Source: Flavobacterium psychrophilum
GTDB taxonomy: Bacteria; Bacteroidota; Bacteroidia; Flavobacteriales; Flavobacteriaceae
NCBI GenBank assembly: GCA_945897545.1
Contig: CAMDGJ010000003.1
Coordinates: 1 to 38,934 of the forward strand
Reading direction: 5' to 3'
DNA length: 38,934 bases
Part shown: positions 6,905 through 30,432 of the stretch, piece after piece
How positions within the stretch are numbered: the stretch's first letter is position 1
Layout: every line of letters starts with the position of its first letter
Notes under the pieces: generated by a model
Seen by the model: only the letters and a program-made list of their open reading frames with translations
Told to the model about the DNA's origin: nothing
Databases searched by the model: none
Translations under genes and position numbers: made by a program

Positions 6905-7262
6905 GATTCAAATTTATTTTAACCTGCTGTTAATTAAATACATAAATATTTATTATAAAACACCTAAGGCAAAAAAATGAGATACGGTTCCCCAACTGCT
7001 AGTGAATCTACAAAACAGGAGGCGGATTAGACGGATTTGCTAAAGCAAAAACCCGAAAGCCCAACAAAAGAAACATTTTTCACCTTAAAAGTACTATTGC
7101 ATTCGCTTGCTATTTTGAAAGAAACTTTAGGGATGGTTTGTTTCAATAATTCATTTCTAAAAAAAAAGCTATAATGATTGCCAAAAAAGGTATGACAATT
7201 ATTTTTAAAGCTAAAATTAATTTGTGTTTTCGGGATCGCAGAATTGGGATTCTATTTTTGAT
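6905..7262. other. Gene-free AT-rich region
   Basis: About 360 bp between the sugar dehydrogenase promoter and the 3' end of radA. I find no convincing open frame, tRNA-like fold or terminator. Short frames here run into the antisense of radA and have no homology I recognise. It may hold decayed sequence. Confidence 0.4.
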
Positions 7263-8624
7263 TTACGCAAACAACTCGCTCGCTACATCTTCAATTTTCG
7301 CCACCAAGCGGATTTTAATAATTGTGTTTTTCAAAGCAATTTTATTATATTTGGATACAAAAATGGTCGAAAACCCTAATTTTTCCGCTTCTTGAATGCG
7401 TTGATCCACTCGATTTACAGGACGAATTTCGCCTGAAAGTCCAACTTCGCCAGCAAAACAGAAGTCTTTATTTACCGGAATATCTTCATTTGAAGATAAA
7501 ATAGCGGCAACAACAGCCAAATCAATTGCCGGATCATCGACAGATATTCCTCCGGTTATGTTCAAGAAAACGTCTTTGGCGCCAAGTCTAAAACCGGCAC
7601 GTTTTTCTAAAACGGCCAAAATCATGTTTAGTCTTTTGGCATTGTAACCCGTGGTGCTGCGTTGCGGTGTTCCATAAACTGCAGTGCTGACCAAGGATTG
7701 TATTTCAATCATTAACGGTCTCATGCCCTCTAGGGTCGAGGCGATAGCGGTTCCTGATAATTCTTCGTCTTTGTGTGAAATTAGTATTTCCGAAGGGTTT
7801 GAGACTTCGCGTAAACCATTACCCAACATTTCATAAATCCCGATTTCTGCAGTCGAGCCAAAACGGTTTTTGTGGGAACGCAGAATCCGGTACACGTGAT
7901 TTCTATCACCTTCGAATTGCAAAACGGTGTCCACCATATGTTCTAGAATTTTAGGTCCGGCAATGTTTCCATCCTTGGTAATATGACCAATTAAAATCAC
8001 GGGAACATTCGATTCCTTGGCAAATTTTATCAGTTCCGCAGTGGTTTCCCGAATTTGAGAAATGCTTCCTGGAGTAGATTCAATGTAATCGGTATGAAGC
8101 GTTTGTATGGAATCGATGATTACTATTTCGGGTTGAATTTCTTCAATTTGCTTGAAGATATTTTGGGTTTTAGTCTCGGTCAGAATATAGCAATTATCAC
8201 TGTTTGGCGTGATTCTTTCGGCACGCATTTTAATTTGCTTTTGGCTTTCTTCACCTGAAACATATAAAGTTTTATATGGTAATTTTAAAGAAATTTGAAG
8301 CAAAAGTGTGCTTTTTCCAATGCCAGGTTCGCCGCCTAAAAGGATTAATGAACCAGGAACAATTCCGCCCCCAAGCACTCGATTGAGTTCGCCGTCACGA
8401 GTATCCATTCGAACTTCTTGAGACGAATCAATTTCGTTTATTCTCAAAGGCTTCGATACTCTTTTCGATTCAGAAACTGATGGTTTCCAACTTGATTTTT
8501 CTTCTTTTTGAATAATTTCCTCTGCAATAGTATTCCATTCTTTGCAGGAATTACATTGTCCTTGCCATTTTGAATATTGAGCACCACAATTTTGGCAAAA
8601 AAAGGAAGTTTTTACTTTTGACAT
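7263..8624 (-). CDS. radA: DNA repair protein RadA
   Basis: 453 residues from the ATG at 8624. N-terminal C4 zinc finger (Cys10, 13, 24, 27: FFCQNCGAQYSKWQGQCNSC), RecA-like ATPase with Walker A GGEPGIGKST at 97-106, Walker B IVIIDSIQT, the RadA-specific KNRFG motif followed by STAEIGIYEM, and a Lon-protease-like C-terminal domain (about 285-450) with no obvious catalytic Ser-Lys pair. RadA is a hexameric helicase that drives branch migration of recombination intermediates. An upstream in-frame ATG at 8648 is rejected because the -7 element at 8646-8653 places transcription start downstream of it. Confidence 0.95.
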   Translation of the reverse strand: MSKVKTSFFCQNCGAQYSKWQGQCNSCKEWNTIAEEIIQKEEKSSWKPSVSESKRVSKPLRINEIDSSQEVRMDTRDGELNRVLGGGIVPGSLILLGGEPGIGKSTLLLQISLKLPYKTLYVSGEESQKQIKMRAERITPNSDNCYILTETKTQNIFKQIEEIQPEIVIIDSIQTLHTDYIESTPGSISQIRETTAELIKFAKESNVPVILIGHITKDGNIAGPKILEHMVDTVLQFEGDRNHVYRILRSHKNRFGSTAEIGIYEMLGNGLREVSNPSEILISHKDEELSGTAIASTLEGMRPLMIEIQSLVSTAVYGTPQRSTTGYNAKRLNMILAVLEKRAGFRLGAKDVFLNITGGISVDDPAIDLAVVAAILSSNEDIPVNKDFCFAGEVGLSGEIRPVNRVDQRIQEAEKLGFSTIFVSKYNKIALKNTIIKIRLVAKIEDVASELFA

Positions 8625-8645
8625 TACTTTTAGCTTATTTAGCTT

Positions 8646-8653
8646 CAAAAATA
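8646..8653 (-). promoter_or_regulatory. -7 promoter element of radA
   Basis: On the minus strand this reads TATTTTTG. It overlaps the alternative ATG at 8648 and predicts a transcript start near 8640, so translation should begin at 8624. A TTTG at 8670-8667 lies 13 bp upstream, closer than a usual -33 element. Confidence 0.6.
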
Positions 8654-8726
8654 AGCTTTAAAAGTGCAAAAAAAAATTATTTGATTGGATTAAAAAAATA
8701 CCTCAAAAACACCGATTAATTTTTGG

Positions 8727-9077
8727 CTACATCAGTGAATTATCATTTTCATTCGGGAAAACGATCCAAGGCTTGAAAGTTTTGGCTTCTTCAAAATCTA
8801 GGGTTGCATAAGAAATGATGATGATGATATCGTCTTTTTGCACCTTTCTTGCTGCAGGTCCGTTGAGGGTAATTTCGCCAGAATTTTTTGCGCCAACAAT
8901 TACATAAGTATCAAATCGTTCGCCATTATTGATGTTTACAATTGACACTTTTTCGCCTTCTATAAGATTTGCGGCTTCCATCAATGCTTCGTCAATAGTG
9001 ATGCTGCCGATATAATTTAAATCGGCGCCAGTTACTTTTACACGGTGAATTTTAGATTTTACTACTTGTATTTGCAT
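8727..9077 (-). CDS. panD: Aspartate 1-decarboxylase
   Basis: 116 residues, the normal length. PanD makes beta-alanine from aspartate for pantothenate and CoA synthesis. The zymogen cleaves itself at Gly24-Ser25 (NYIGSITID) to create the pyruvoyl cofactor; Lys9 and the NNGERFDTYVI block around 50-60 (Arg54, Tyr58) are present. It follows panC after 14 bp, so the two form an operon that supplies and then uses beta-alanine. It has no promoter of its own that I can see. Confidence 0.96.
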   Translation of the reverse strand: MQIQVVKSKIHRVKVTGADLNYIGSITIDEALMEAANLIEGEKVSIVNINNGERFDTYVIVGAKNSGEITLNGPAARKVQKDDIIIIISYATLDFEEAKTFKPWIVFPNENDNSLM

Positions 9078-9091
9078 TGTGCAAAAGTAAA

Positions 9092-9940
9092 TTAATTTAG
9101 TGAAATGGTATCTATCAATCGAATATTGTTAACAAAAACGGCAATAAAAGCGCGGTATTTCTTGTTTTTATTTTTTCGCAAACATGGCAAAAGCGTTGTC
9201 TCGTCGGCAATTTGAAAATATTCTAGTTTGAAATCTGGATTTTTTTCGAATGTTTTTTGCGCCCATTCCGTCACCGTTTTGGAGCTATTTATTTTGAATT
9301 TTTCTTTTGCGCCAATTAAAACTTCATAAATTATGGAGGCTTTGTGTTTTTCTTTTGCGGATAAAAGTGCGTTTCTGGAACTCATTGCTAGATGGTTTAA
9401 TTCTCTATAAATGGGACAGCCTTTGACGTTGACTTTCAGATTATTTTTAGCTACCATTTTCTTTACAATTTGTAATTGTTGAAAATCTTTCTCCCCAAAA
9501 TAGGCATTTGTAGGCTCGACGATTTCGAAAAGCTTTTTGACTATTGTCGCAACACCATTGAAATGTCCGGGTCTGAATTTTCCTTCCATTTGATTTTCCA
9601 ATCCGTCAAAATCAAAAAATAGAGAGGAGGGTTTTCCTTCATAAACATCATCAATAGCTGGTGCAAAAACAATTATTTTAGTGCTTAAATTTGCTATTTT
9701 TTTGATGTCTTCCTCTAGTTTTCTGGGGTATTTTGCTAAATCTTCTTGATTGTTAAACTGGGTTGGGTTTACAAAAATACTCACAACAGTGGCTTGGTTT
9801 TCTTGCATTGACAGTTGCATCAACGATAAATGACCTTGATGCAAAGCACCCATTGTAGGAACAAAACCAATTGAGGAATGGTTGGTTTTAATAGATTTTA
9901 AATAATCTATCAAAGCTGCTTTTCCATAGAAAATATGCAT
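9092..9940 (-). CDS. panC: Pantoate-beta-alanine ligase (pantothenate synthetase)
   Basis: 282 residues from the ATG at 9940. PanC joins pantoate and beta-alanine using ATP. Motifs: FVPTMGALHQGHLSLM at about 26-41 with the HxGH-type nucleotide site, FVNPTQF, the FRPGHFNGVATIVKKLF block, FGEKDFQQ, and the MSSRN loop that replaces KMSKS. An in-frame ATG at 9970 would add ten residues, but the -7 element at 9964-9971 overlaps it, so the shorter start is preferred. It is first in the panC-panD operon and divergent from the glycogen-synthase-like gene. Confidence 0.95.
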   Translation of the reverse strand: MHIFYGKAALIDYLKSIKTNHSSIGFVPTMGALHQGHLSLMQLSMQENQATVVSIFVNPTQFNNQEDLAKYPRKLEEDIKKIANLSTKIIVFAPAIDDVYEGKPSSLFFDFDGLENQMEGKFRPGHFNGVATIVKKLFEIVEPTNAYFGEKDFQQLQIVKKMVAKNNLKVNVKGCPIYRELNHLAMSSRNALLSAKEKHKASIIYEVLIGAKEKFKINSSKTVTEWAQKTFEKNPDFKLEYFQIADETTLLPCLRKNKNKKYRAFIAVFVNNIRLIDTISLN

Positions 9941-9963
9941 AGGTGTTTTATTGAAATAATATG

Positions 9964-9971
9964 CAAACATA
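9964..9971 (-). promoter_or_regulatory. -7 promoter element of panC-panD
   Basis: The minus strand reads TATGTTTG (TAnnTTTG), with a predicted start near 9958 and an 18-nt leader. It is 31 bp from the divergent -7 element at 10003-10010, so the two promoters share upstream DNA. Confidence 0.55.
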
Positions 9972-17498: not shown

Positions 17499-18980
17499 AT
17501 GATAAAAAATATAAAATTGCTATTTTTGGTTTCGTTAACCTTTATAGCCTGTAACGATGACGAAATAGTTACTTACGACACCGCAGACGGATTACCACTT
17601 ACGGCAGGAACAGCCGATTTTTCTAAATATGTTGCTCTTGGCGATTCTTATGCCGCTGGATTTTCTGATGGAGCCTTGTTTATTGAAGGGCAAAAAGGAG
17701 CTTATCCTAATATTTTATCACAACAGTTTGCTCTTGTAGGCGGAGGGACATTTACTACGCCACTTATGGCAGATAATACGGGTGGATTGCTACTAGGTGG
17801 AACACCAATTCAAGGAGTTCGATTGTATTTTAATGGAAAAGCCCCAGTTACTGTAGCTGGCTCTCCAACGACTGAAATCACAAAGCATCTTACCGGTAGT
17901 TTCAATAATATGGGAATACCTGGGGCAAAAAGTTTTCATTTGTTAGCGCCAGGTTATGGCAACACAGCTGGCATAGCTTTAGGAACAGCAAGCCCTTATT
18001 TTTCCCGTTTCTCATCGAACACAACAACAACTGTTTTGGCAGATGCTATAGCACAAACCCCAACATTCTTCTCCTTGTGGATTGGTGGTAATGATGTTTT
18101 AGGATATGCGTTATCTGGTGGCGATGGCACTAACCCTATTACCCCAACGGCTACATTTAGTGGGGCTTACAATTCTTTAGTTTCTCAGCTTGCAGCTGGC
18201 GGTCGTAAAGGAGTAATTGCAAATTTACCGTATGTTAGTGCGTTACCGCATTTCACAACAGTGCCGTATAATCCTGTTCCGCTTGATGCCGCAACAGTAG
18301 CTAAACTTAATAGCGCTGCGGCGTATGGTGCTTATAATGCTGGTATTGCTCAAGCTTTTGCTTATTTGGTAGCTAATAACTTAATGACTCAAACTAATGC
18401 TGATGCAGAAAAAGCAAAGAGAACTATTACTTTTCGTGTAGGTGCAGGCAATGCTGTTGTAATGATGGATGAATATCTAACAAATTTAACAAATATAAAT
18501 CCAGCATTGGTAAGTATGAGACAAGCTACTGAAGAAGATTTAATTGTTTTACCAGCAAGTTCTTTTATAGGAAGTACAGTTGGGGGGAACCCAGAATTAG
18601 TTAATGGTGTTTCTGTTCCTTTGGCAGACAAATGGGTGCTTTCTAAAGATGAAATCAAGGAAACTAAAGCAGCAACTGATGCCTATAATGTAACTATTGA
18701 AACTGCAGCAAGTACAAACAACTTGGCTTTCGTAGATGCGAAAATGATAATGAATCAATTATCTACAACTGGAATAACTGCAAATAATTTTACAATTAAC
18801 GCCACTTTTGTGTCGGGTGGTGCTTTTTCGCTTGACGGCTTTCACCCAACTCCAAGAGGGTACGCCTTAATAGCTAATAATTTTATAAAAGCTATAAACA
18901 CTAAATATGGTTCTAATCTTAGTGGAGTTAATTTAGGAGATTACAGAATATTATTTCCTAGAGACGCTGCCAATTTTTAA
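17499..18980 (+). CDS. SGNH/GDSL-hydrolase lipoprotein
   Basis: 493 residues. The lipobox ends at Cys18 (FIAC) and is followed by NDDE, an acidic cluster matching flavobacterial lipoprotein surface-export signals. SGNH blocks are present: nucleophile VALGDSYAAGFSDG at about 46-59, a Gly in NMGIPGAKSFH, Asn in WIGGNDVLGY near 192-201, and the Asp-His pair in DGFHPTPRGYALIAN near 453-467. The enzyme should be an esterase, lipase or carbohydrate deacetylase acting on the cell surface. It is co-transcribed with the TonB receptor, which suggests that the hydrolase trims the substrate the receptor imports; this is inference. The central region (about 60-160) has a large insertion relative to simple GDSL enzymes. 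Confidence 0.87.
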   Translation: MIKNIKLLFLVSLTFIACNDDEIVTYDTADGLPLTAGTADFSKYVALGDSYAAGFSDGALFIEGQKGAYPNILSQQFALVGGGTFTTPLMADNTGGLLLGGTPIQGVRLYFNGKAPVTVAGSPTTEITKHLTGSFNNMGIPGAKSFHLLAPGYGNTAGIALGTASPYFSRFSSNTTTTVLADAIAQTPTFFSLWIGGNDVLGYALSGGDGTNPITPTATFSGAYNSLVSQLAAGGRKGVIANLPYVSALPHFTTVPYNPVPLDAATVAKLNSAAAYGAYNAGIAQAFAYLVANNLMTQTNADAEKAKRTITFRVGAGNAVVMMDEYLTNLTNINPALVSMRQATEEDLIVLPASSFIGSTVGGNPELVNGVSVPLADKWVLSKDEIKETKAATDAYNVTIETAASTNNLAFVDAKMIMNQLSTTGITANNFTINATFVSGGAFSLDGFHPTPRGYALIANNFIKAINTKYGSNLSGVNLGDYRILFPRDAANF

Positions 18981-19005
18981 ATAAAGTCGTCCACACAAAT
19001 AAATA

Positions 19006-19036
19006 GCCTTCTCATTTTTTGAGAAGGTTTTTTGTT
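19006..19036 (+). terminator. Rho-independent terminator after the SGNH gene
   Basis: Stem CCTTCTCA / TGAGAAGG with a TTTT loop, then a run of six T's. It ends the receptor-hydrolase operon. Confidence 0.88.
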
Positions 19037-19114
19037 TTATATGCATTTTTCTTGATTTTTTAATCCCGCAGTAAATTTTCAAATTTAACTGGCTGCTTTT
19101 TTATAAAAAAAGTG

Positions 19115-19145
19115 TTGATTTTTATATTTTAAAAATTTACCTTTG
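19115..19145 (+). promoter_or_regulatory. Promoter of atpD-atpC
   Basis: TTG at 19115-19117 and TACCTTTG at 19138-19145 match the Bacteroidota -33/-7 pair with 20 bp between them. The leader to the atpD ATG is about 75 nt. It is the best complete promoter in the window. Confidence 0.7.
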
Positions 19146-19225
19146 CGCACTGAAAGTGCATTCAGTCGATTAGTTTCGTTTAGATGCCAATCATAAATCT
19201 GAATAGCTATTTAATAAATACATAA

Positions 19226-20740
<1,515 letters not shown>

Positions 20741-20765
20741 TAAAGAGGGAACTTAGAAATGGGAA

Positions 20766-20823
20766 GTTAGAAGTTGTTTAAACTTTATCTCCACTTCTAA
20801 CCTCTAACCTCTAACCTCTAACT
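20766..20823. repeat. Heptad repeat and hairpin in the atpD-atpC gap
   Basis: CCTCTAA-like heptads run from about 20795 to 20823. GTTAGAAGT at 20766-20774 is perfectly complementary to ACTTCTAAC at 20793-20801, so the mRNA can form a 9-bp stem with an 18-nt loop between the two coding regions. No T-tract follows, so it is not a simple terminator. Confidence 0.6.
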
Positions 20824-20830
20824 TTAAAAT

Positions 20831-21112
20831 ATGTTTTTAGAAATAGTATCACCAGAAGCAAAATTATTTTCAGGCGAAGTAATCTCGGTTACCCTTCCGG
20901 GAGTCGATGGTAGTTTTCAAATATTGAATCATCACGCACCCATAGTTTCGATACTTCAAAAAGGAATCGTAAAAATTACGGCTCCAAGTTTCAATTTTAG
21001 CAAGGAAGTAGAGGATTTATTCACGAAAGTGAACGATCAGAATTATACTTTAGTTATCAATTCTGGAACTATTGAAATGAAAGACAATAAAGTAATTGTT
21101 TTAGCCGATTAA
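20831..21112 (+). CDS. atpC: F1F0 ATP synthase subunit epsilon (short form)
   Basis: 93 residues. The N-terminal beta-sandwich is complete (FLEIVSPEAKLFSGEVISVTLPGVDGSFQILNHHAPIVSIL is split over residues 2-42, ending in NHHAP). The C-terminal two-helix hairpin found in the ~135-residue bacterial form is absent; the protein ends at VIVLAD. Short epsilon subunits are usual in Bacteroidota, and lack the helix that inhibits ATP hydrolysis in E. coli. It follows atpD by 90 bp in the same transcript and ends in a terminator. Confidence 0.93.
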   Translation: MFLEIVSPEAKLFSGEVISVTLPGVDGSFQILNHHAPIVSILQKGIVKITAPSFNFSKEVEDLFTKVNDQNYTLVINSGTIEMKDNKVIVLAD

Positions 21113-21129
21113 TACGATTTCACGATAAA

Positions 21130-21166
21130 AACTAAAAGCCAAGCAGTACTGTTTGGCTTTTTTTTG
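21130..21166 (+). terminator. Rho-independent terminator after atpC
   Basis: Stem AAAGCCAA / TTTGGCTTT around a GCAGTACTG loop, then eight T's, about 20 bp after the atpC stop. Confidence 0.88.
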
Positions 21167-21294
21167 GCACTAATTAGTCACAGCTTAAAAATAGATCAAT
21201 AATCGGACTGTTAATAACTTAAGTTAAAATAACACTAAAAAAGGTTCTGGTAAATCGCCAAAAAGTGAATATTTCGGTATAAAAAAGCGGCAAT

Positions 21295-21510
21295 ATGTTA
21301 GGCAAAATAAAACCAGATTCACAGCAAAATTTATTTAAAACTAGACTGACAGACCTTATAAACCTTGGTCATCCCTTGATAAAATTGGCAGATGAGGTTT
21401 CTTTGGATAAAATGGAGTTGGAGTTCCAAAATTTATATTCAGAACAAGGAAGACCCCGCATTCCTATTCGAAAAATTGCTGGGTTATTGCTCTTGAAAGA
21501 AATGTTTAAG
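21295..21510 (+). mobile_element. IS5-type transposase, N-terminal remnant
   Basis: About 71 codons from ATG 21295 (MLGKIKPDSQQNLFKTRL … FQNLYSEQGRP … IPIRKIAGLLLLKEMF) match the N-terminal domain of IS5-group DDE transposases of Bacteroidota. All catalytic DDE residues are missing. Homology stops at about 21507, and by 21522 the sequence is aldehyde dehydrogenase in the +2 frame relative to the transposase frame; the frame stays open to 21645 only by chance. The left IS end probably lies shortly upstream, near the AAGGTTCTGG at about 21240, but I cannot fix it and no right end is present. It is a dead fragment. Confidence 0.75.
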
Positions 21511-21512
21511 CA

Positions 21513-22040
21513 CTTTCAGCCACTGACCTGCAGGCTGTTGAAATGTATGCCAATGCTTTATCAAAAGTCCTTGCCGAAGGCGGTAAACTTGTCGTTCAAG
21601 GCGGTGTCCTTTCGGGCGAAGGATATGAAAGTGGTTGCTATGTAAAACCTGCGATTGCGGAAGCCAATAATTCATTCACAATCGTGCAACACGAAACTTT
21701 TGCTCCAGTTTTATACCTATTGAAATATTCAGGTTCGGTAGAAAATGCTATCGAAATTCAAAACGGAGTTGCTCAAGGACTTTCATCTGCAATCATGACG
21801 AATAATTTGCGCGAAGCGGAACTTTTCTTATCAGTAACAGGATCCGATTGCGGTATTGCCAATGTAAATATTGGAACATCCGGTGCTGAAATTGGTGGTG
21901 CTTTTGGTGGAGAAAAAGAAACCGGTGGCGGACGTGAATCCGGTTCCGATGCTTGGAAAATTTATATGCGCCGTCAAACTAATACCATTAATTACACTAC
22001 AAGTTTGCCTTTGGCGCAAGGAATAAAATTCGATTTGTAA
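21513..22040 (+). pseudogene. Aldehyde dehydrogenase (ALDH7/AmaB type), 3' fragment, copy 1
   Basis: The frame reads back from the stop at 22040 to about 21513 (…TDLQAVE just before ATG 21543) and corresponds to roughly the last third of an ALDH7-family enzyme, L-aminoadipate-semialdehyde / piperideine-6-carboxylate dehydrogenase. Present are [29 protein letters not shown] and the terminal [21 protein letters not shown] block. The catalytic Cys, the NAD-binding N-terminal region and about 340 residues are missing, replaced by the IS fragment. An ATG at 21543 could give a 165-residue product, but it would be inactive. A full-length copy may exist elsewhere in the genome. Confidence 0.85.
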
Positions 22041-22052
22041 ATATACAATCCA

Positions 22053-22093
22053 TAAAAAAAGCGGCAAGATTTTATATCAAGCCGCTTTTTTAT
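22053..22093 (+). terminator. Terminator behind ALDH fragment copy 1
   Basis: Stem AAAAAAAGCGGC / GCCGCTTTTTT with a 15-nt loop. It starts 13 bp after the stop codon. The left arm of the same terminator is also present behind copy 2 near 26066, but the right arm is damaged there. Confidence 0.85.
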
Positions 22094-22277
22094 TTGTGGT
22101 AACTTTATTCGGCTACTATCCAGCGCCAAAAGCTTAGTACATTTTTTAAACCATTAAGAAATTAAGAAAATTAAGTTTTGGGTCTTTTGTAAAAAAATGC
22201 TACAGGAGCAGTCCTGCGCAACAAAGCAAACGAGAGGAATGAGACTGCTTGATTGCCCTATGCTCATTCTAAAACAA

Positions 22278-24269
22278 TTAGTTAAAATCTTTAATTCTTA
22301 TTTTATCATCTTGAACATAAAAGAAAATATTTGATTTAAATTCAAAATTATCAGGAATTAAAGTTGGAATAAATTCAATTCTTGTGCCATACTGATTCCA
22401 ATTATTATTTAAATCTTTCATTAATAAAAAATAACTTTTTTTATCTCCGTTTGCAAATGGCGACTCAATTTTATGAGCTACTATTAAATAATTAGAGCTA
22501 GAATCATAATCAAAAAAAGTAATTTCACCCCCTTGATTATTACTTCTAAAAACAAGTTCGTTGTTATATTGACTCCATAAATTTGATGAAGCGTTATAAT
22601 GATAAGTTCTTATATAACAAGGGTCAGTTGAGTCACCAGAAACAGTATCTCTTTGTGAAGAAATCCCAATTTTTGTTCCATCATCTGACAAACAAAGGCG
22701 ATAACCCCAACCTCTTGTATTTGGTCCTTCAATGAAATTACCTCTTTGAGTAAAAGTTGTACCATCGTAAAAAAACACCCCTATTCTTCCATTTGTAGGA
22801 AAACCACCTAACGCCCCTAAATTTTGTGCGGCATTACTTAGTGCAATAATGCTGCCATCATTACTTATTTGTAGGTCAGAATTGCCTAATATCCCATTCG
22901 CTAAAAACTGGCTTGAAACCCAATTATTTCCAACTAATTTATAAAAAGTAATTGACTGTGTAGTATTTCCTGAATTATCTAAACTTACAATTAAATTTGC
23001 AGCTGCATTCATTTTTGTTTTAATAAAGCCAATACTAGGAATCGTGCTATGTAATACCCAAGTATTGTTAACTAATTTATAAATATAACCATCGTTTGGT
23101 GTTCCTCCAGTAAAAAATATTGATAATCCATCGCCACTAATCCCTACTTGAAGTCCATATCTGCTATTAAGTGATGGTCCTATAAATTCTTGGCCAACAT
23201 TTTCAAAAGTGCCATTTTCATACTTCAATACAGATACTTTACCTGCAGAATTAATGTTATTGCCGCTATTGTCAATCCCAGTGTGTGACTGACACCCCAA
23301 TATAATAAATTTCCCATTATCACTCACTGCTATTGAGGTATAAGTGCCGCAAATTGAAATATCTCCATTGTAAGTTGTTATAGCATCAGAAAATGCAGCG
23401 TTAGCCCCAATAGAGTTTGAGGCTGGGCCTTGTATTCCTTGTGGTCCTGCAACCCCTTGTGCTCCATTACAAACATATTTAGTTTGCGCAACATTAATTT
23501 CACTATTTTCTAATAAACCATTGCTATTGCTGTCTAATCCCACTTCTATTTTGGTACCACCATTTGAACAGTTAACTCCTGCAGGTTCAACGGTTGTTTT
23601 TATTAAGGCATTTAAACCATTGTTTCCATTTGTTCCCGCTAAACCATTATCCCCCTTATCGCCTTTCAATCCTTGAATTCCTTGAGGACCAGACACTCCT
23701 GTATCGCCTTTCAATCCTTGAATTCCTTGTGGTCCTGTAAGCCCTACTGTGCCTATAGGTCCTGCTATTCCCTGAGCTCCAGTATCTCCTTTCAAACCTT
23801 GAATTCCTTGCGGTCCAGCAGGTCCTGGCGTGCCAGGTGTTCCTGAATTAGCAGCATAAAGCGCAAAAGGAACAGATGTAAAAGGTTGGTTACTGATTTC
23901 AAGAAAACTAGAACAATTTCCTGTAGTGTCTAATTCCACAACAAGATTTTTTGGATTCCCATCCCAATTCACAGCAGCAAAATTCAGTGCTGTACCACCT
24001 GTTTTTGTTCCTGTACCAATGATAACATTGACCATCCCAAATTCATCTGTGGTAGTAGTTAAAATTTCCTGATATTCTATTAGAGATTCACCCTTTAAAA
24101 TTTTAAAACGCAAACAAATATTTGTATTTACTAATGGCGCTCTGGAGTTATCAGCTCCCGGCAATTCCTCTCCTTTTGGATTTAGTATTACAGCCTGATA
24201 CGTAATTCCGTTTTGAGCGTTTGAGAATAATGCAAAAAATAGCAAAAATAAAATGTATATCTTTTTCAT
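22278..24269 (-). CDS. Secreted collagen-like / DUF7151 protein with beta-propeller-like C-terminus
   Basis: 663 residues. Signal peptide 1-18 ([18 protein letters not shown]); a beta-rich N-terminal domain about 20-138; a collagen-like Gly-X-Y region at 143-218 built from a [13 protein letters not shown] unit; a DUF7151 domain at about 219-269 ([34 protein letters not shown]); a short second Gly-X-Y stretch to 283; and about 370 residues of repeats such as [17 protein letters not shown] and [15 protein letters not shown] that suggest a beta-propeller. No T9SS tail is seen. It is third in a three-gene operon, 8 bp after the beta-barrel gene. A surface or matrix role is likely; the ligand is unknown. 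Confidence 0.85.
23657..23810. repeat. Coding tandem repeat in the collagen-like region
   Basis: A 28-bp string is identical at 23657-23684 and 23702-23729, 45 bp (15 codons) apart. A third, slightly diverged copy is at 23783-23810. It encodes the GIQGLKGD repeats and offers a site for slippage or recombination that would change collagen-arm length. Confidence 0.75.
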
Positions 24270-24277
24270 ATTAATTT

Positions 24278-24892
24278 TTAATTAAAGGCATAATGAACGC
24301 CAAATTGTAATTGACTGGTGCTAAATGATAATTTTTGTGCTGTAGCATTTGTTGGGTTAAGTCCTATGCAATAGTTATATCCAAAACTGATGAAGCCAGC
24401 AGAAGAAAGATTGTATTTTATTTGAACTCCTAATGAAGGGGTTACTAACAAACCAGAAAATTCCTTTTCTTTGGTCAAGTCATAATACGTTCCATTAATG
24501 CTCTCTTTACCACTTATTATAGTTGCGAGATTTAATCCAAACTTGGGAAGAATATCAAAATCACTTCTTTCGATAATAGAATAAGTAATTCCTCCTTGAA
24601 AACCGAGATATTCTGTGTTCCAGGAATAACTATTTACAGAATTACCTCCTACATTATTGTATTCATTCAATGCCAAGCCCAGAGAATAGCTGAATTTATC
24701 ATTCTCTAAAGGCTGAATAAAGCCTAACTCATAAAAATTTCCCGTTCCATTTTTAAGATTGGGATTTGAGGCACCACTTGAATCTTTAAAATTATAAGTG
24801 GTAAAGTTTTTCCCCACTGAGAAATAAACTTCTTGAGCGTGGGCATTTTCCAAGGACCAAAATATGGCAAGCAAAAAAATTAATTTTTTCAT
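24278..24892 (-). CDS. Outer-membrane beta-barrel protein
   Basis: 204 residues with a signal peptide (cleavage about residue 19, NAHAQ). Alternating hydrophobic/polar strands with aromatic ends ([72 protein letters not shown]) and a C-terminal [10 protein letters not shown] suit a porin-fold OMP of about eight strands. Its ATG overlaps the stop of the upstream T9SS-tail gene by one base (TAATG), so translation is coupled. It probably anchors or supports export of its operon partners; that is inference. Confidence 0.8.
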
Positions 24893-25383
24893 TATTGTTT
24901 TAATATTTGTGAATAATAAGTATAGTTAGGAGCTGTTAATCGAGCCAAATAGTTACTTGATGGTAATGAAGGTAAGTCGATAGTTAAGAGAGTTTCAGAA
25001 GCCTTTTTTTCGTCCTTAAAAACCAATCTTCCACGAATATCAAAAACCTCAATCAGTATCTTGTCTTTAACGGGAATCGAAAACTGAAAATTTATAGTAG
25101 TTACAAAAGGATTGGGATAAGTGATGGTCGAAATGGCAGTGGTTATCTTTATATTGATATATTTTCCCCAATTACTTTGTTGGAATCCCTGACCGACAGT
25201 ATAGCCATTTTTATAGTTTCCAATAGCGCTTTGTTGTCCAATCGACTGGCTTACGAGCATTCCATTAGCAATAACTACACTTTTCCCCTGTGCAGCAATC
25301 ATCTGGTGATGAAGTTCTTGACTATGCATCGATAAACTGATAAAAAGCAGTAATACGCATATAAGTTGTCGTCTTTCTCTCAA
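24892..25383 (-). CDS. Short secreted protein with T9SS type A sorting domain
   Basis: 163 residues. Basic N-terminus and signal peptide (MRERRQLICVLLLFISLSMHSQ), a middle segment SVVIANGMLVSQSIGQQSAIGNYKNGY common in small flavobacterial T9SS cargo, and a sorting tail from about residue 85 (ITYPNPFVTTINFQF, VFDIRGRLVF, YLARLTAPNYTYYSQILKQ). It should be secreted by the type IX system and linked to the surface. First gene of a three-gene operon with the beta-barrel and collagen-like proteins. Confidence 0.85.
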   Translation of the reverse strand: MRERRQLICVLLLFISLSMHSQELHHQMIAAQGKSVVIANGMLVSQSIGQQSAIGNYKNGYTVGQGFQQSNWGKYINIKITTAISTITYPNPFVTTINFQFSIPVKDKILIEVFDIRGRLVFKDEKKASETLLTIDLPSLPSSNYLARLTAPNYTYYSQILKQ

Positions 25384-25447
25384 AATATTCTATTTAAAAT
25401 TTAATAATTACTGTATAAACAAACCCATTATTTTTCATCTTAGATTG

Positions 25448-25455
25448 CAAACATA
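25448..25455 (-). promoter_or_regulatory. -7 promoter element of the island surface-protein operon
   Basis: The minus strand reads TATGTTTG (TAnnTTTG), with a leader of about 58 nt to the ATG at 25383. No clear -33 half is visible. It lies 125 bp from the palindrome at 25580-25597. Confidence 0.5.
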
Positions 25456-25579
25456 AAAAGTATAATTTTCATTACTTTACGGGAAACCTCATATGAGCAA
25501 AATATTTTTATTTTTTTTAATTGTGGCAATACTATTAATAGCTAAGATTTAATTTTTGACAGACAAATATATAAGAATT

Positions 25580-25597
25580 TTCGACTTATAAGTCGAA
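25580..25597. promoter_or_regulatory. 18-bp perfect palindrome, candidate operator
   Basis: TTCGACTTATAAGTCGAA is its own reverse complement over 18 bp. It lies 43 bp before the start of a small HTH gene and between that gene and the divergent surface-protein operon. This is the usual place for the binding site of a dimeric HTH repressor controlling itself and its neighbour. Confidence 0.55.
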
Positions 25598-25640
25598 TGA
25601 AAGAAAGTTTTTTGGTTTTGTACTTTATTTTCTTTGCTCT

Positions 25641-25874
25641 ATGCAGAGTTATTTTGAAAAAATAGAAGCAGAACTAGTAAATAGGCTGTACAAAGAATTT
25701 ATAATCAAGTTTGATGGAAACAAATCCAAATTTGCTAAAGCTTCATTATGTTCTGAAACTACCGTAAGAAGAGTATTCAGGAACGAGCAAAGGATGACCG
25801 TTGATTTGTTATTGAGATTCTGTTCTGCATTAGGAATGAAAGTTTCTGACTTATTTAATCGTCTTGAGCTCTAA
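25641..25874 (+). CDS. Small XRE-like helix-turn-helix regulator
   Basis: 77 residues. After an N-terminal helix ([18 protein letters not shown]), residues about 28-74 form a five-helix XRE-type domain: [20 protein letters not shown] supplies helices 2-3, with recognition residues in [11 protein letters not shown], and [21 protein letters not shown] supplies helices 4-5. There is no catalytic or ligand domain. A weak TTTG … CTTTG promoter-like stretch precedes it. It is the only gene of the inserted segment on the plus strand and is divergent from the surface operon, which it may regulate through the nearby palindrome. Confidence 0.75.
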
Positions 25875-25909
25875 CAGAGGGAGGGCTATCAAAGGTAAAA
25901 ATTAAACAA

Positions 25910-26053
25910 GGTGCTTTTGGTGGAGAAAAAGAAACCGGTGGCGGACGCGAATCTGGTTCCGATGCTTGGAAAATTTATATGCGTCGTCAAACCAATACAA
26001 TTAATTATACTACTAGTTTACCTTTGGCACAAGGCATAAAATTTGATTTGTAA
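25910..26053 (+). pseudogene. Aldehyde dehydrogenase (ALDH7/AmaB type), 3' fragment, copy 2
   Basis: The last 47 codons and stop of the same ALDH gene as copy 1 ([12 protein letters not shown] … [11 protein letters not shown]). It aligns without gaps to 21897-22040: 133 of 144 bases are identical and all 11 differences are third-position synonymous changes, so the peptide is identical. Similarity continues for about 35 bp past the stop, into the first arm of a terminator, and then ends. There is no start codon or upstream coding sequence; 36 bp earlier lies the HTH gene's stop. Confidence 0.9.
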
Positions 26054-26226
26054 AGAAAAAATCTATAAAAAAAGCGGCAAAATTTTCATCGAAGCGCTTC
26101 GTCTATTTTTTTGCCAAAAATTGCTTCGCCTGTTCGCAATTGCTCGGGTCACAGATTAATAAATGATATTTTAAAATCTGTGCATCCGTGGCTATTAGTA
26201 TTTATATGAGTTTGTCCCGTGCTATT
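26054..26226. other. Gene-free stretch with degenerate terminator and ATCTGTG arms
   Basis: It holds the left arm of a terminator (AAAAAAAGCGGC), a 12-bp palindrome CGAAGCGCTTCG at about 26090-26101, and CACAGATT at 26150-26157 paired with AATCTGTG at 26175-26182. The latter words recur as intergenic repeats in flavobacteria. No gene is visible. Confidence 0.45.
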
Positions 26227-26952
26227 TTAATTTCTCCCTTTTTCACTTGGGTACAAACTGGGCAAAGGTTCGCTTTGCCAAAATTCCTTCGAATCGATAT
26301 CCATTATTGTTAATGGTCCTTTAAATGCTGCGCCGGTGTCAACATTCAATACATTGGCCATTTGAATTGGTACAGTTTTGTTAATTCTCGAAACAGGTGT
26401 GTGCCCTATGAAGATTTCGCGGTATAAAGTCAATCGTTTTGGATATAATACATCATCTGTTTTCATCGTTTTATCTAATGCCAACGCGGTTTCCCAAAGT
26501 GTTCTATCCCAACAAAATAATCTCGGGAAATATTCATAATCTACCCCGCTCATATTAGTGAAACCAGCGTGAATAAAAAGCCTATTTTTTTCGTCGAGAT
26601 AATAATTCTCTAGTGATTGTATGAATTCGATATGTTTTTTAATCGTTTCGGCACTTACATTAGCATAAGCTAAAACTGTTGATTCGCCACCGTGTTTGTA
26701 CCATAGCAAATTATCCTTAGTTTTTGTAAGCCAATCTAATAATAATTCATCGTGGTTGCCAAGGATAAAAACACAATTGTGAGTAATTTTTAATTCCATC
26801 AAATAATCAATCACTTGCGGCGATTGGCTCCAGCCATCCACATAATCTCCCAGAAAAATTAAGGTATCTTTTGGGGTAACATTGGCTCTTTCCATAATTT
26901 GGTGCAGCGCCCGCAAACCACCATGAATATCGCCTATAACGAGTGTTCTCAT
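26227..26952 (-). CDS. Calcineurin-like metallophosphoesterase
   Basis: 241 residues. The dimetal motifs of the PPP/ApaH-type family are in order: GDIHG at 7-11, GDYVDG at 35-40, GNHDE at 65-69, FIHAGF near 125, and IGHTPV near 197. It is a cytoplasmic phosphatase; candidates are protein serine/threonine phosphatase or diadenosine-polyphosphate hydrolase, which this sequence alone cannot separate. It starts 23 bp after the AlbA_2 gene, so they probably share a transcript. In the original chromosome it probably lay directly behind the ALDH gene end. Confidence 0.9.
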   Translation of the reverse strand: MRTLVIGDIHGGLRALHQIMERANVTPKDTLIFLGDYVDGWSQSPQVIDYLMELKITHNCVFILGNHDELLLDWLTKTKDNLLWYKHGGESTVLAYANVSAETIKKHIEFIQSLENYYLDEKNRLFIHAGFTNMSGVDYEYFPRLFCWDRTLWETALALDKTMKTDDVLYPKRLTLYREIFIGHTPVSRINKTVPIQMANVLNVDTGAAFKGPLTIMDIDSKEFWQSEPLPSLYPSEKGRN

Positions 26953-26975
26953 TCTAATTTATTTAATTTGTTTTT

Positions 26976-28115
26976 CTACTGCATGTCATACTTCATTTTC
27001 CTCAAAATCCGCAACGCTTCTTTAAACGACAAATATACAGAAGTGAAGGGTTTCAGCAGCGGTTTGGCGTCAATCAATTTCTGTTTGGCCTCTTCAAATC
27101 CGTTGAGGTAACAAATCATAAATGTCGACGGTAAGTTTTCTAAATCTTTCTGTTCCCGTTCGGTTAACGAAAGCCCTTTTTGGAGTTTTTTGAGCAAAGC
27201 AATGTTGGAATTGTAAATATGAAACAGCATTTTCTTATTGAATTCCGGTGGTAGAAAAAGGAATTCTCTATCAATTTTATAATATCCATTATCATAAAAA
27301 TGCAGCGTTTGTTTCTCCAAAGGATAAAAGCTCGTTTTGTCATTTAAACCCAAAGGAACATATTCTATAATCGTAAAAGTATCCTCGTCAAAAGTAATTG
27401 TCACCACATCTTGCGCCGAATAAAAAAGTTTAATTTGCTCGTTTATCAGCTCAATATCCACCCGGGAAAGGAAAGTTTTGTCTCGCGATTTTTTAGGAAC
27501 TCCCGCCCAGCAAATAACAAATAATTCCTTGAAAACCTTGTACTTTGGCATCATATCTTTGTGCCGGAGATTCATAAAATCAATCACGCCGTCGAGTGTG
27601 TAACCTATGCTGTTTCTGGAATTATTTTCAATTCCTATAACGGTTTCCGTGTTTTGATAATTTTTCTCTATTTCCCCTTCAACAGGAACGGTATTGCTCC
27701 CACGACGAATAAAAACACTTTTGGCAGGAATCGTATGAATTCCTTTTTTGAAATGTGACGTCTTGCTTTTTGCCTTTATGCTTACCAATCCCAAAACTTT
27801 GTCTTTTGGCAAATTAGGAAAAGGCACATTTTCGTATTGAATTTTTGGTGGATTTTCGAGATAAGCGTTCACTAGATTCTGGATGTGACTGTCGTCAAAA
27901 AAATCATCGCCCACAATTTCGTTATCCTGATCTTCGACGCCCACAACAATATAGGAATTATTCGCTGGATTCGAATTGGATAAGGCACAAATATGTTTCA
28001 AAAATTTAGCTTTTCCCTCTCGTGTATGCAGATTCAACTGACGTTTTTTGTCATAAAAACTACTCTCATCATTGTGAGCTAAAAGATTTTTGACTAGAAG
28101 ACGCTTGTTAATCAT
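26976..28115 (-). CDS. AlbA_2-domain (Schlafen-type) putative DNA/ATP-binding protein
   Basis: 379 residues. The N-terminal ~140 residues match the AlbA_2 domain: ESSFYDKKRQLNL, KFLKHICALSNS, YIVVGVEDQDNEIVGDDF, and KSVFIRRGSNTVP. The rest (about 150-379) has no motif I recognise, apart from a central beta-rich segment and a helical end. AlbA_2 proteins are usually annotated as ATP-binding transcription regulators or nucleic-acid-binding proteins. It lies upstream of the metallophosphoesterase in a probable two-gene operon. A terminator immediately precedes it, so its promoter must lie inside the toxin-like gene or be read-through. Confidence 0.75.
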   Translation of the reverse strand: MINKRLLVKNLLAHNDESSFYDKKRQLNLHTREGKAKFLKHICALSNSNPANNSYIVVGVEDQDNEIVGDDFFDDSHIQNLVNAYLENPPKIQYENVPFPNLPKDKVLGLVSIKAKSKTSHFKKGIHTIPAKSVFIRRGSNTVPVEGEIEKNYQNTETVIGIENNSRNSIGYTLDGVIDFMNLRHKDMMPKYKVFKELFVICWAGVPKKSRDKTFLSRVDIELINEQIKLFYSAQDVVTITFDEDTFTIIEYVPLGLNDKTSFYPLEKQTLHFYDNGYYKIDREFLFLPPEFNKKMLFHIYNSNIALLKKLQKGLSLTEREQKDLENLPSTFMICYLNGFEEAKQKLIDAKPLLKPFTSVYLSFKEALRILRKMKYDMQ

Positions 28116-28120
28116 TTTTT

Positions 28121-28156
28121 AAAAATAAAAAAAGAGCAATGTTTAAATTTGCTCTT
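28121..28156 (-). terminator. Terminator of the toxin-antitoxin pair
   Basis: On the minus strand, AAGAGCAA / TTGCTCTT forms the stem, followed by a run of seven T's. The first arm lies within the last codons of the toxin-like gene, so stop codon and hairpin overlap. Confidence 0.75.
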
Positions 28157-28490
28157 GTGATTTCAAATAAAGCCATTTGGTTTCTTCACAATGGCTATTT
28201 ATGATGTTGGTAATTAAATAATTGTTGTTTTTATTTTCAAAAAAAACATACCAAGTTGTTCGTTGATTCGATTTATTGAAAATATATCTTGATCCAAAAC
28301 TCTTTAATGCTATAGGAGTTTTTTTGGAAGGGAATGTAGCAATATCACTTTCTATGAAATTGATTATTTTGTCTTTGTATAGAATAGAATTTTCTAGATA
28401 ACTAAAATATTTTTCTTTAAACAAAACGCAAATCAATTCATTCAAATAGGTTTCTACTTCGGGTTTGTAAAGAATATTTATTTCTTCCAA
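28143..28490 (-). CDS. RelE/ParE-like toxin (putative)
   Basis: 115 residues. The pattern of an N-terminal helical hairpin followed by strands with SFGSRYIFNKSNQRTTWYVFFENKNNNYLITNIINSH resembles a Bacteroidota branch of ParE/RelE-fold toxins, in which the TTWYIFF and YLIxYIxNNH strings are conserved. It overlaps the upstream small gene by 13 bp, as toxins often do with their antitoxin. The target (ribosome-bound mRNA or gyrase) is not deducible. Identification rests on remembered family similarity and gene arrangement. Confidence 0.6.
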   Translation of the reverse strand: MEEINILYKPEVETYLNELICVLFKEKYFSYLENSILYKDKIINFIESDIATFPSKKTPIALKSFGSRYIFNKSNQRTTWYVFFENKNNNYLITNIINSHCEETKWLYLKSQEQI

Positions 28491-28675
28491 GGGAGTGTTT
28501 TTAAAAACTCAGTAGTTCGTATTTTTAATTCTTCTCCAGAAATTCCTTTTTTAAATTCTTCATCAAAATTGAAACTAGTTTGTTTTTTGAGAATTTCAAT
28601 TTCATTTAAAACCGTTTGATCTTGAAGTGATAAAATCCAATCTATAATTTCTTTTTTTTGTGTTGCGATTTCCAT
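28478..28675 (-). CDS. Antitoxin-like small protein
   Basis: 65 residues: a helical N-terminus (KKEIIDWILSLQDQTVLNEIEILKK) and a charged C-terminal tail (ISGEELKIRTTEFLKTLPWKK), the typical layout of short antitoxins with a dimerising part and a toxin-binding tail. No clear ribbon-helix-helix motif is visible. It is the first gene of the pair, has its own -7 element at 28693-28700, and overlaps the toxin-like gene by 13 bp. Confidence 0.6.
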   Translation of the reverse strand: MEIATQKKEIIDWILSLQDQTVLNEIEILKKQTSFNFDEEFKKGISGEELKIRTTEFLKTLPWKK

Positions 28676-28692
28676 TTTTATAGAATTTATTT

Positions 28693-28700
28693 CAAAGTTA
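28693..28700 (-). promoter_or_regulatory. -7 promoter element of the toxin-antitoxin pair
   Basis: The minus strand reads TAACTTTG (TAnnTTTG), 17 bp before the antitoxin ATG; the leader would be about 11 nt. A TTG at 28728-28726 is 25 bp upstream, slightly far for a -33 element. Confidence 0.5.
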
Positions 28701-28730
28701 CTGATTTTATTTATCTAATATAAAACAATC

Positions 28731-29492
28731 CTAACTAATTGATTCTCTTTTAACAATAGTGGCTGAGGCCTGCGCTGTTGGCATAACAATCAAATCAGCA
28801 ATATTCACATGATATGGTCTGGAAACCACAAAATGAATAATATCGGCAATATCCTCTGGGGATAAGGGTTGTAATCCTTTGTAAGTATTGGCGGCTTTTT
28901 CTTTGTCGCCTTTGAAACGCACTTCACTAAACTCAGTTTCAACCATTCCCGGATGAATGGCACCAACCCGAATTCCGTATGGATTCAAATCCATTCGCAT
29001 CCCTTTGTTCAACGCATCAACGGCAAATTTTGAAGCACAGTACACATTCCCGTTTGGATATACTTCTTTTCCTGCAGTAGAACCTATGTTGATGATATGA
29101 CCTGATTTTTGTTCGATCATCCTTGGAATTATTGCTTTTGAAACATATAAAAGTCCTTTTACATTAATGTCTATCATCGCATCCCAATCGTCTAAATCCC
29201 CATTTTGAATAGCATCTAAACCTTGCGCATTTCCAGCATTATTAATTAAAACATCAATTTTAGAAAAGTCGGAAGGCAAAGAATTGATGCTTTCAAAAAC
29301 CGCTTTTCTATCCCGAACATCAAATGATAATATACAGATTTCCGTGAATTCAGAAAGTTCTTTTTCGAGTTCCTTTAATCGATCTTCTCGTCTTCCGCAG
29401 AGAATTATTTTATAGTTATTTTTGGCCAATATTCTTGCTGTGGCTCTACCAATTCCACTTGTTGCGCCAGTAACTAAGGCTATTTTAATCAT
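28731..29492 (-). CDS. SDR-family oxidoreductase (YdfG type)
   Basis: 253 residues, classical short-chain dehydrogenase length. Cofactor motif TGATSGIG at 8-15 with Arg34-Arg35 (CGRRED) favouring NADP(H); NNAG at 84-87; catalytic Ser138, Tyr151 and Lys155 (VYCASK). The C-terminal IHPGMVETEFSEVRF and the RPYHVNIADLIVMPTAQA tail match YdfG-type 3-hydroxy acid dehydrogenases. It is 64 bp downstream of an aldo/keto reductase on the same strand, so both may be co-transcribed and act on carbonyl metabolites. Confidence 0.92.
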   Translation of the reverse strand: MIKIALVTGATSGIGRATARILAKNNYKIILCGRREDRLKELEKELSEFTEICILSFDVRDRKAVFESINSLPSDFSKIDVLINNAGNAQGLDAIQNGDLDDWDAMIDINVKGLLYVSKAIIPRMIEQKSGHIINIGSTAGKEVYPNGNVYCASKFAVDALNKGMRMDLNPYGIRVGAIHPGMVETEFSEVRFKGDKEKAANTYKGLQPLSPEDIADIIHFVVSRPYHVNIADLIVMPTAQASATIVKRESIS

Positions 29493-29556
29493 TTTTATTA
29501 TGGTTTTATTTGGAAATTGTTACTATACAATTTCATTTTTTTAAAGATTTTCCCAT

Positions 29557-30432
29557 TTAAGGAATAGGATTTCCAGCACTTGCTGTCCAAAAAGCAAACC
29601 AATCTTCAAGTTCCATTTCCATTGTTGTAGCCTTCATTAAATTGGCAATTCTACTCTTGTCGGCTGTGCCAAAAACCGGTAAAATTCCCGAAGGATGTTT
29701 CAAAATCCAGGCGAGAAGTAATACGTCTATTTCGACATTGTATTTTAGCGAAAGTTGGTCTGCCAGTTTGTTGATTCGATTGGATGTATCATCGGCCTTT
29801 TTGAAAACGCTTCCCATTGGCGACCAGCACATTGGTTGAATTCTGTTGAGTTGCATATGGTCTAAACTCCCGTTGAGCATCGGTTCAAAATGGGTGAGAG
29901 AAAACTGGATTTGATTGTAATTTATTTTTATTTTTGTCTCAATTAAATCAGTTTGACTCGGACTAAAATTAGAAACACCAACATCCAAGATTTTCCCTTC
30001 TTTTTTCAGTTTTTCAATTGCTTCGACAATCTCTTCAACTTGCATAAGCGGACTAGGTCTGTGTAATAAAAGCAAATCAAGATAATCTGTTTTTAAATTT
30101 TTCAATGATTGTTCTGCTGACCAAATAATATGCGATTTCGAATAATTGTAATGGTGAATTTTAGTGCTTCTGTTTTCTGAGGGTAACTGTATGCCGCATT
30201 TCGAAATCAGTTGAATGTCTTCTCTTTTAATCTGGCTTTCGCCAAAAGCGTTACCAAAAGCAGCTTCAGTTGTATAACTACCATAAATATCGGCCTGATC
30301 AAATGTAGTAATTCCTGTTTCAAGACAGGAATGCATTAGGTCAATCATCTGGTTTTTGTCCAGGTTTTTGCCCCAAGTTCCCCAGGTCATCGTACCGGCA
30401 ATAATTTTAGAAAAAGGTGTTTTATTTATCAT
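29557..30432 (-). CDS. Aldo/keto reductase, YdhF type
   Basis: 291 residues. N-terminal IAGTMTWGTWG, then the tetrad Asp45 and Tyr50 (TFDQADIYGSY), Lys78 (ISKCG) and His124 (LLLHRPSP). LGVSNF-like VGVSNFSPSQ and the FGTADKSRI block near the C-terminus bind NADPH. Similar along its length to E. coli YdhF, whose natural substrate is unknown. It differs clearly from the Tas-type reductase at 4451, which belongs to another branch. Upstream 211 bp separate it from the divergent Bat operon. Confidence 0.92.
   Translation of the reverse strand: MINKTPFSKIIAGTMTWGTWGKNLDKNQMIDLMHSCLETGITTFDQADIYGSYTTEAAFGNAFGESQIKREDIQLISKCGIQLPSENRSTKIHHYNYSKSHIIWSAEQSLKNLKTDYLDLLLLHRPSPLMQVEEIVEAIEKLKKEGKILDVGVSNFSPSQTDLIETKIKINYNQIQFSLTHFEPMLNGSLDHMQLNRIQPMCWSPMGSVFKKADDTSNRINKLADQLSLKYNVEIDVLLLAWILKHPSGILPVFGTADKSRIANLMKATTMEMELEDWFAFWTASAGNPIP

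Follow-up and report, generated by a model that had tools for sequence, protein, structure and literature searches.

The 3' end of an aldehyde dehydrogenase (ALDH) gene occurs twice in a 38,934-nucleotide stretch of Flavobacterium psychrophilum DNA (contig CAMDGJ010000003.1 of assembly GCA_945897545.1; the whole stretch is called the window here), and an adhesin operon with a divergent helix-turn-helix (HTH) regulator lies between the two copies. We propose, with a probability of roughly 40%, that this cassette was captured from sister-species DNA by recombination, without an integrase of its own, leaving two ALDH tails with species-level divergence. Between copy 1 (21897-22040) and copy 2 (25910-26053), 11 of the 144 bases differ. 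All of these are third codon positions, and both copies encode the same 47 residues; these values reproduce those of the initial annotation of this region. The direct repeat continues for 33 bases beyond the stop codon into the terminator, reaching 177 nt in total at 91% identity, and it is the top direct-repeat family within 18000-30000. The interval between the copies (22041-25909) measures 3,869 bp, where 3.9 kb had been given earlier.

21897..22073, + strand: repeat copy 1 (tail, stop codon and start of the terminator), from direct-repeat search and alignment
25910..26086, + strand: repeat copy 2 (final 144 bp of ALDH and part of the terminator), from direct-repeat search and alignment
21525..22040, + strand: 3' fragment of an ALDH7-type gene with no internal stop, containing the copy 1 tail (PF00171; NF050084 positions 307-475; 88% nucleotide identity to genome G247)

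The gene, annotated as ALDH7-type, can be specified as L-piperidine-6-carboxylate dehydrogenase (NF050084), and its full-length homologue in genome G140 exceeds the cut-off of that model. The gene end is duplicated, as had been noted, but neither copy sits in a complete gene here. Copy 1 belongs to a 5'-truncated fragment of about 172 codons, whose match begins at about 21525 (residue 5), and the frame of copy 2 is truncated as well.

Divergence and phylogeny of the two copies

About 25% of random changes in the 144-bp stretch would be synonymous, and the chance of 11 out of 11 under decay is about 3e-7. The copies have therefore not decayed from a dead local duplicate, which bears out the earlier argument that neutral decay would not spare the protein, and 11 differences that are all synonymous indicate that selection acted on two separate functional genes. 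Pairwise comparison of 109 distinct tails gave 45 pairs with 9-13 differences, 28 of them with no amino-acid change; for pairs with 9-20 differences the count was 199 of 519. The synonymous-only pattern is thus strong evidence against decay, yet ordinary among functional orthologs of neighbouring species.

We then compared distances over the 144 bases. The copies stood 11 apart, copy 1 differed from G247 at 10 and copy 2 from G247 at 12, and the next nearest sequences lay at 13. These values support the view that the divergence between the copies has the size of a species-level difference. A free tree search used 47 rows, namely both copies plus the 45 closest of 108 sequences, with copy 2 filling 144 of 516 columns. 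It grouped copy 1 with G247 (98/92) and joined copy 2 to genome G001 (97/80). The best tree holding the copies together scored 1.11 log-likelihood units above the free tree (approximately unbiased test, p 0.517), and clustering of the copies, the outcome that the initial annotation had set against its own proposal, is not rejected. Its claim of an origin in different lineages holds in part: the species-level divergence (10-12 of 144) was found, and separate origin is unsupported by the tree. The 144-bp tree decides neither which copy is native nor whether there were two lineages, and the stronger argument comes from the equal distances.

An old tandem duplication in one lineage, with both copies under selection until recently, would fit the joint tree, which does no worse than the free one, and also the finding that copy 1 is the closest sequence to copy 2 in the set (11 differences, at least 12 for all others). 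However, the distance between the copies is not below that between copy 1 and G247 (11 against 10), and neither copy now lies within a full gene. Species-level synonymous divergence likewise speaks against a target that duplicated itself, although the tree does not reject a common origin. We consider an old duplication quite improbable. Capture by recombination, an integrative element and a fusion of two ALDH genes, all weighed below, agree that the tails were shaped in two functional genes and recently brought together.

Identity block at the edge of the repeat

The two copies are identical over their first 38 bp, and this block starts exactly at the right-hand junction of the cassette (J2, 25910), which has no ALDH homology on its cassette side. 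A difference-free run of the first 38 bases was seen in 1 of the 45 ortholog pairs with 9-13 differences and in 2 of the 519 with 9-20, a statistic examined post hoc on pairs that share ancestry and are non-independent. The position of the block at the repeat edge lends moderate support to an exchange, or an attachment (att) core, at that site. If the cassette was captured by recombination, an identity run is expected here because the exchange would lie at the left edge of the repeat. This shared 38-bp start of the copies may be read as an att core or, alternatively, as an exchange tract.

Cassette content and the HTH regulator

The insert carries the following features.

22278..24269, - strand: collagen-like surface protein, 663 aa (Collagen, DUF7151; domain scan, with collagen-like adhesin models below their cut-offs)
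24278..24892, - strand: outer-membrane beta-barrel-like protein, 204 aa (NF049866, below cut-off)
24892..25383, - strand: type IX secretion system (T9SS) type A sorting-domain protein, 163 aa (PF18962; TIGR04183)
25580..25597, no strand: 18-bp perfect palindrome TTCGACTTATAAGTCGAA, putative HTH operator (16-bp core exact upstream of the HTH gene in 17 of 20 HTH loci)
25641..25874, + strand: HTH_26 (Cro/C1-type) regulator, 77 aa, divergent from the operon (PF13443)
25875..25909, no strand: 35-bp link ending at J2 (in 8 of 20 HTH loci a tyrosine recombinase gene starts at most about 40 bp past the HTH stop, according to lists of open reading frames)

No recombinase or transposase was detected among the four open reading frames of the insert that were scanned, consistent with the earlier remark that an integrase is lacking, and the window contains no tRNA. 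The GC content of the insert (32-36%) is like that of the remainder of the window, so composition does not flag it as foreign.

Searches covered 398 genomes of this genus, which were taken from a larger group. Matches to the 204-aa protein occurred in 55 of them, and relatives of all three operon genes were clustered in each of the 13 loci examined first (which represent 13 of the 16 top match rows). The set of 54 operon loci comprised 53 of 73 match rows (L181-L193 and L215-L254) plus the window. By hand count, the upstream gene was divergent and 76-86 or 343-400 aa long in 27 of the 54. Five such upstream genes were scanned together with that of the window, and all six encoded HTH proteins, AraC-type in three and HTH_26 in three; the divergent regulator of the adhesin operon seems exchangeable. 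A literature search combining type IX secretion, collagen-like and Flavobacterium, and limited to that combination, found no paper.

The HTH family of the window had matches in 46 of the 398 genomes. Across 20 HTH loci (L255-L274), the distance of the 16-bp palindrome core from the HTH start was the same in 14 of the 17 loci with an exact core. The HTH gene and the palindrome therefore look like a conserved regulator-operator unit with swappable cargo, the operator being putative. A literature search for the cttataag palindrome in Flavobacterium found no paper within that combination of terms. The core stays constant while the divergent cargo varies, and by eye the cargo is often secreted or lipoprotein-like. 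The closest HTH relative, in genome G238, is 91% identical, with DNA identity of 85% over 25477-25869; its neighbours, read by eye, are presumably rpmA and rplU, and no integrase adjoins it.

These HTH loci bear on the possibility that a site-specific element entered the ALDH 3' end, brought the copy 1 tail, displaced the old tail (copy 2) and later lost the integrase next to its HTH gene, with the 38-bp block as att core. The tyrosine recombinase genes in 8 of the 20 HTH loci come directly after the HTH gene, roughly at the point that corresponds to the copy 2 start in the window, and copy 2 starts exactly with the identity block. Three of the eight recombinases were checked against Pfam, and all carried PF00589, PF17293 and PF13102. 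L269 contains an exact 30-bp direct repeat that overlaps the tRNA-Asn end, a position expected of att sites. An element that lost its integrase would explain both the HTH kinship and the att-like block as well as recombination capture does. However, 7 of the 8 recombinase-bearing loci (L255, L256, L257, L259, L260, L263 and L269) adjoin tRNA-Asn and not ALDH, the G238 relative has no adjoining integrase, and four HTH-linked integrase queries had no match at 1e-6 in L001-L120, which are most of the fetched ALDH loci, many only 3.5 kb long and L081-L111 about 2 to 3.5 kb each. With no recombinase among the four scanned reading frames of the insert and no hit in those loci, the integrative element targeting a gene end that the initial annotation suggested is not established, and we rate it as unlikely. 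The tRNA-Asn islands themselves consist of an HTH gene, a tyrosine recombinase and variable small cargo genes.

The cassette-free locus in relatives

Of the 398 genomes, 380 had a match to the ALDH fragment, and a scan of the genome contigs with this fragment supplied the best 80 loci among the matches listed. In near relatives, the ALDH gene lies upstream of a metallophosphoesterase gene and a DUF5929 gene, at a distance of at most 0.7 kb in L005 and L022.

26227..26952, - strand: metallophosphoesterase, which near relatives usually carry downstream of ALDH (PF00149; 93% amino-acid identity to G247)

The nearest genome was G247 (2.1 Mb), with nucleotide identities of 88% for the ALDH fragment, 87% for the phosphoesterase (93% in amino acids) and 90% for the DUF5929 gene. 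Its locus runs from ALDH through a DUF6646 gene to the metallophosphoesterase and holds no cassette; it belongs to a related species, not to a strain of the same species, and the DUF6646 gene is missing from the window, where 26054-26226 separates the ALDH tail from the phosphoesterase. An empty site, with ALDH directly followed by the metallophosphoesterase, had been suggested as a check. A cassette-free locus was found, but the DUF6646 gene intervenes before the phosphoesterase.

Flank similarity was also assessed. Within the left half, 7,249-9,970 was 89% identical to G247; the long matches in five further genomes reached at most 85% identity, and the remaining comparison genome (G298) gave just a 23-bp match. 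The right flank (26,225-28,115) was 87-90% identical to G247. The two flanks are similarly close to G247, and both halves therefore come from one kind of organism. This matters for the suspicion that two co-occurring sister species were merged into a chimeric window during assembly, a suspicion that draws on the possible metagenomic source of the window and on the resemblance of the copies to alleles of two species. G247 is about as similar to one flank as to the other (89% and 87-90%), none of the other searched genomes is closer to either, the cassette side of J2 has no shared sequence to mislead an assembler, and genome G140 (described below) shows a similar pattern inside a 4.5-Mb contig. 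A chimera is therefore very unlikely in our judgement.

The left junction

From left to right, the region consists of atp genes, a broken insertion sequence (IS), the ALDH 3' fragment with its terminator, the minus-strand operon, the HTH gene, the ALDH tail and the metallophosphoesterase.

21169..21509, + strand: left 341 bp of an IS5-family element (terminus and first ~72 transposase codons), cut internally (77-81% identity to copies in genome G270; NF033578 in the G270 copy)
21510..21524, no strand: junction J1 between the IS fragment and the ALDH fragment (IS match stops at 21509, ALDH match from 21525)

G270 holds at least 30 matches to the IS5-family fragment of the window, and its copies align with one another over about 1,490 bp. 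A domain scan identified atpC to the left of the IS remnant, and the gene left of the remnant that we read by eye is presumably atpD; a short tandem run of a CTCTAAC-like unit lies between atpD and atpC (20785-20825). In G001, G293, G326 and G140, the atp genes and ALDH share a contig but lie 289-389 kb apart, and the left junction of the window is a rearrangement because of this separation in four relatives. The region as a whole is thus a patchwork with several junctions. A single truncated IS is present, to the left of copy 1, where a composite transposon would have one at both ends. The copy 1 gene is incomplete at J1, where an element inserted at the gene end would leave a complete gene at attL; this truncation is possibly a later event.

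The G247 contig (L112 1-42) begins inside ALDH, about 40 bp upstream of the equivalent of the IS junction in the window. The 5' part of the gene was not found elsewhere in G247, where only the first 99 bases of the contig itself were matched. The contig start may reflect chance or a shared breakpoint.

Such junctions raise the alternative that two complete ALDH genes of different origin were present, that both were cut short by two IS-aided deletions or rearrangements, which also joined HTH-side DNA to the second, and that the gene end is merely a leftover. J1 is an illegitimate junction of this kind, the distance between the atp genes and ALDH in the four relatives fits it, and by hand count two ALDH matches occurred in 37 of the 398 genomes (two candidates scored per genome). 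This course would, however, make the 38-bp identity run a matter of chance (1 of 45), require a large deletion or translocation and leave the G140 case unexplained; we think it an improbable one. In five genomes with both ALDH matches listed, the two were far apart or on separate contigs.

Similar flanking repeats at other operon loci

In G140, two copies of a complete SMR-family gene (L185 5367-5734 and 11895-12260) enclose a related operon (47-52% amino-acid identity). These copies are 93.75% identical over 368 bp, differ at 14 of 327 bases and show 91% and 93% identity to G298. The SMR gene and the next gene, which by eye is presumably MFS, are contiguous without an insert in G293. The G140 contig is 4,503,648 bp long, so an assembly fault is unlikely there. 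The operon of G368 is flanked on either side by a 94-bp copy of a gene tail and its terminator, the two being 94.7% identical (L188 5500-5592 and 10882-10975); the gene with the doubled tail is, by eye, presumably cytochrome-biogenesis-like. The pair of genes that borders the operon in G368 also borders it in G006, G118 and G148, each of which has one tail match among the matches listed. The target genes differ (ALDH, SMR and the third gene), and recombination therefore fits better than a single site-specific enzyme.

Direct repeats of at least 50 bp straddling the locus were present in 5 of 54 operon loci, compared with 1 of 60 ALDH loci and 0 of 20 HTH loci (E 1e-6); 40 of the 54 operon loci had 1.5 kb to the left and 5 kb to the right, and the ALDH control was the 60 of 80 loci that were long enough. 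The comparison of 5/54 with 1/80 gave p 0.039. Two of the five, L220 and L222, were set aside as dispersed intergenic repeats, and the single control hit (L018) also appears intergenic.

Proposed course of events

From these observations we infer the direction of transfer, the route and the order of events as follows. A fragment carrying the adhesin operon, the divergent HTH regulator and an ALDH 3' end would have met the resident ALDH tail. One joint would have formed by homologous exchange within the tail and the other, at J2 (25910), by end-joining, either through a single crossover of a circularised fragment or through homology-facilitated illegitimate recombination. The result would be two ALDH tails, diverged at species level, as direct repeats. 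In a separate event, a rearrangement associated with the IS5-family element would have cut ALDH on the left at J1 and placed the fragment beside the atp genes.

Several findings weigh against this capture by recombination. The tree that joins the copies scores above the free tree, J1 requires a further event, and the missing DUF6646 gene means that copy 2 is not simply an undisturbed native end. At the other loci, the SMR copies of G140 differ at 4 of 108 residues, and the second tail copy in G368 carries a stop. The flanking-repeat pattern is also infrequent: without the two dispersed repeats the comparison falls to 3/54 against 1/80 (p 0.30), which is not significant, and the generality of the pattern is suggested rather than shown.

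If capture by recombination is true, diverged direct repeats with synonymous-only differences would be a readable scar of integrase-free transfer. Identical target duplications cannot reveal that the flanks stem from two lineages; diverged repeats would. Should the pattern of ALDH, SMR and the third gene be general, it would offer a route to recombination-borne accessory genes that searches for mobile elements miss. A broader and rather doubtful extension is that regulator-plus-adhesin cassettes of Flavobacterium move between species free of any enzyme of their own, with the end of a neighbouring gene as homology handle, two diverged copies left by each entry and any locus with the matching gene as a possible target; the HTH gene and palindrome would then be a swappable control unit for secreted cargo.

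Comparison with known systems

Integrative elements that enter a gene end replace the end of the host gene, and SGI1 integrates at trmE. As in such elements, the host gene end is doubled at the ends of the insert, one copy possibly supplied by the element; in contrast, the insert here has no integrase in the four tested open reading frames, and no element was found at ALDH in the loci searched. In the minimal mobile elements of Neisseria, accessory genes are exchanged between conserved genes by homologous recombination and swapped cleanly. The window may share with them the movement of accessory genes by homologous recombination between conserved genes, but where their swap is clean, a diverged direct repeat was left here.

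The account of 14 sequenced Escherichia coli clones in PMC3240628 describes gene-end duplications of 109-950 bp, ascribed to single crossing-over of a deleted circular molecule. Judged by that account, single-crossover or homology-facilitated illegitimate recombination yields gene-end duplications like that of the window, and would share with it a homology joint in a gene end. In the window, J2 lacks ALDH homology on its cassette side, and the homologous joint would be the one within the tail. The E. coli system is a laboratory plasmid, whereas the window case is deduced from sequence and would have taken place between species.

Insertion with long target duplication is known from Helicobacter pylori restriction-modification genes, in the form in which PMC1643837 and PMC3031569 cite Nobusato et al. 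2000. In both systems a gene block is flanked by a long direct repeat of the target, here 177 nt at 91% identity. The repeats of the window differ in being diverged at species level with synonymous-only changes, and they enclose an adhesin operon instead of a restriction system. By this comparison, the scar in the window would be that of insertion with long target duplication, set apart by the divergence of its repeat and by its cargo.

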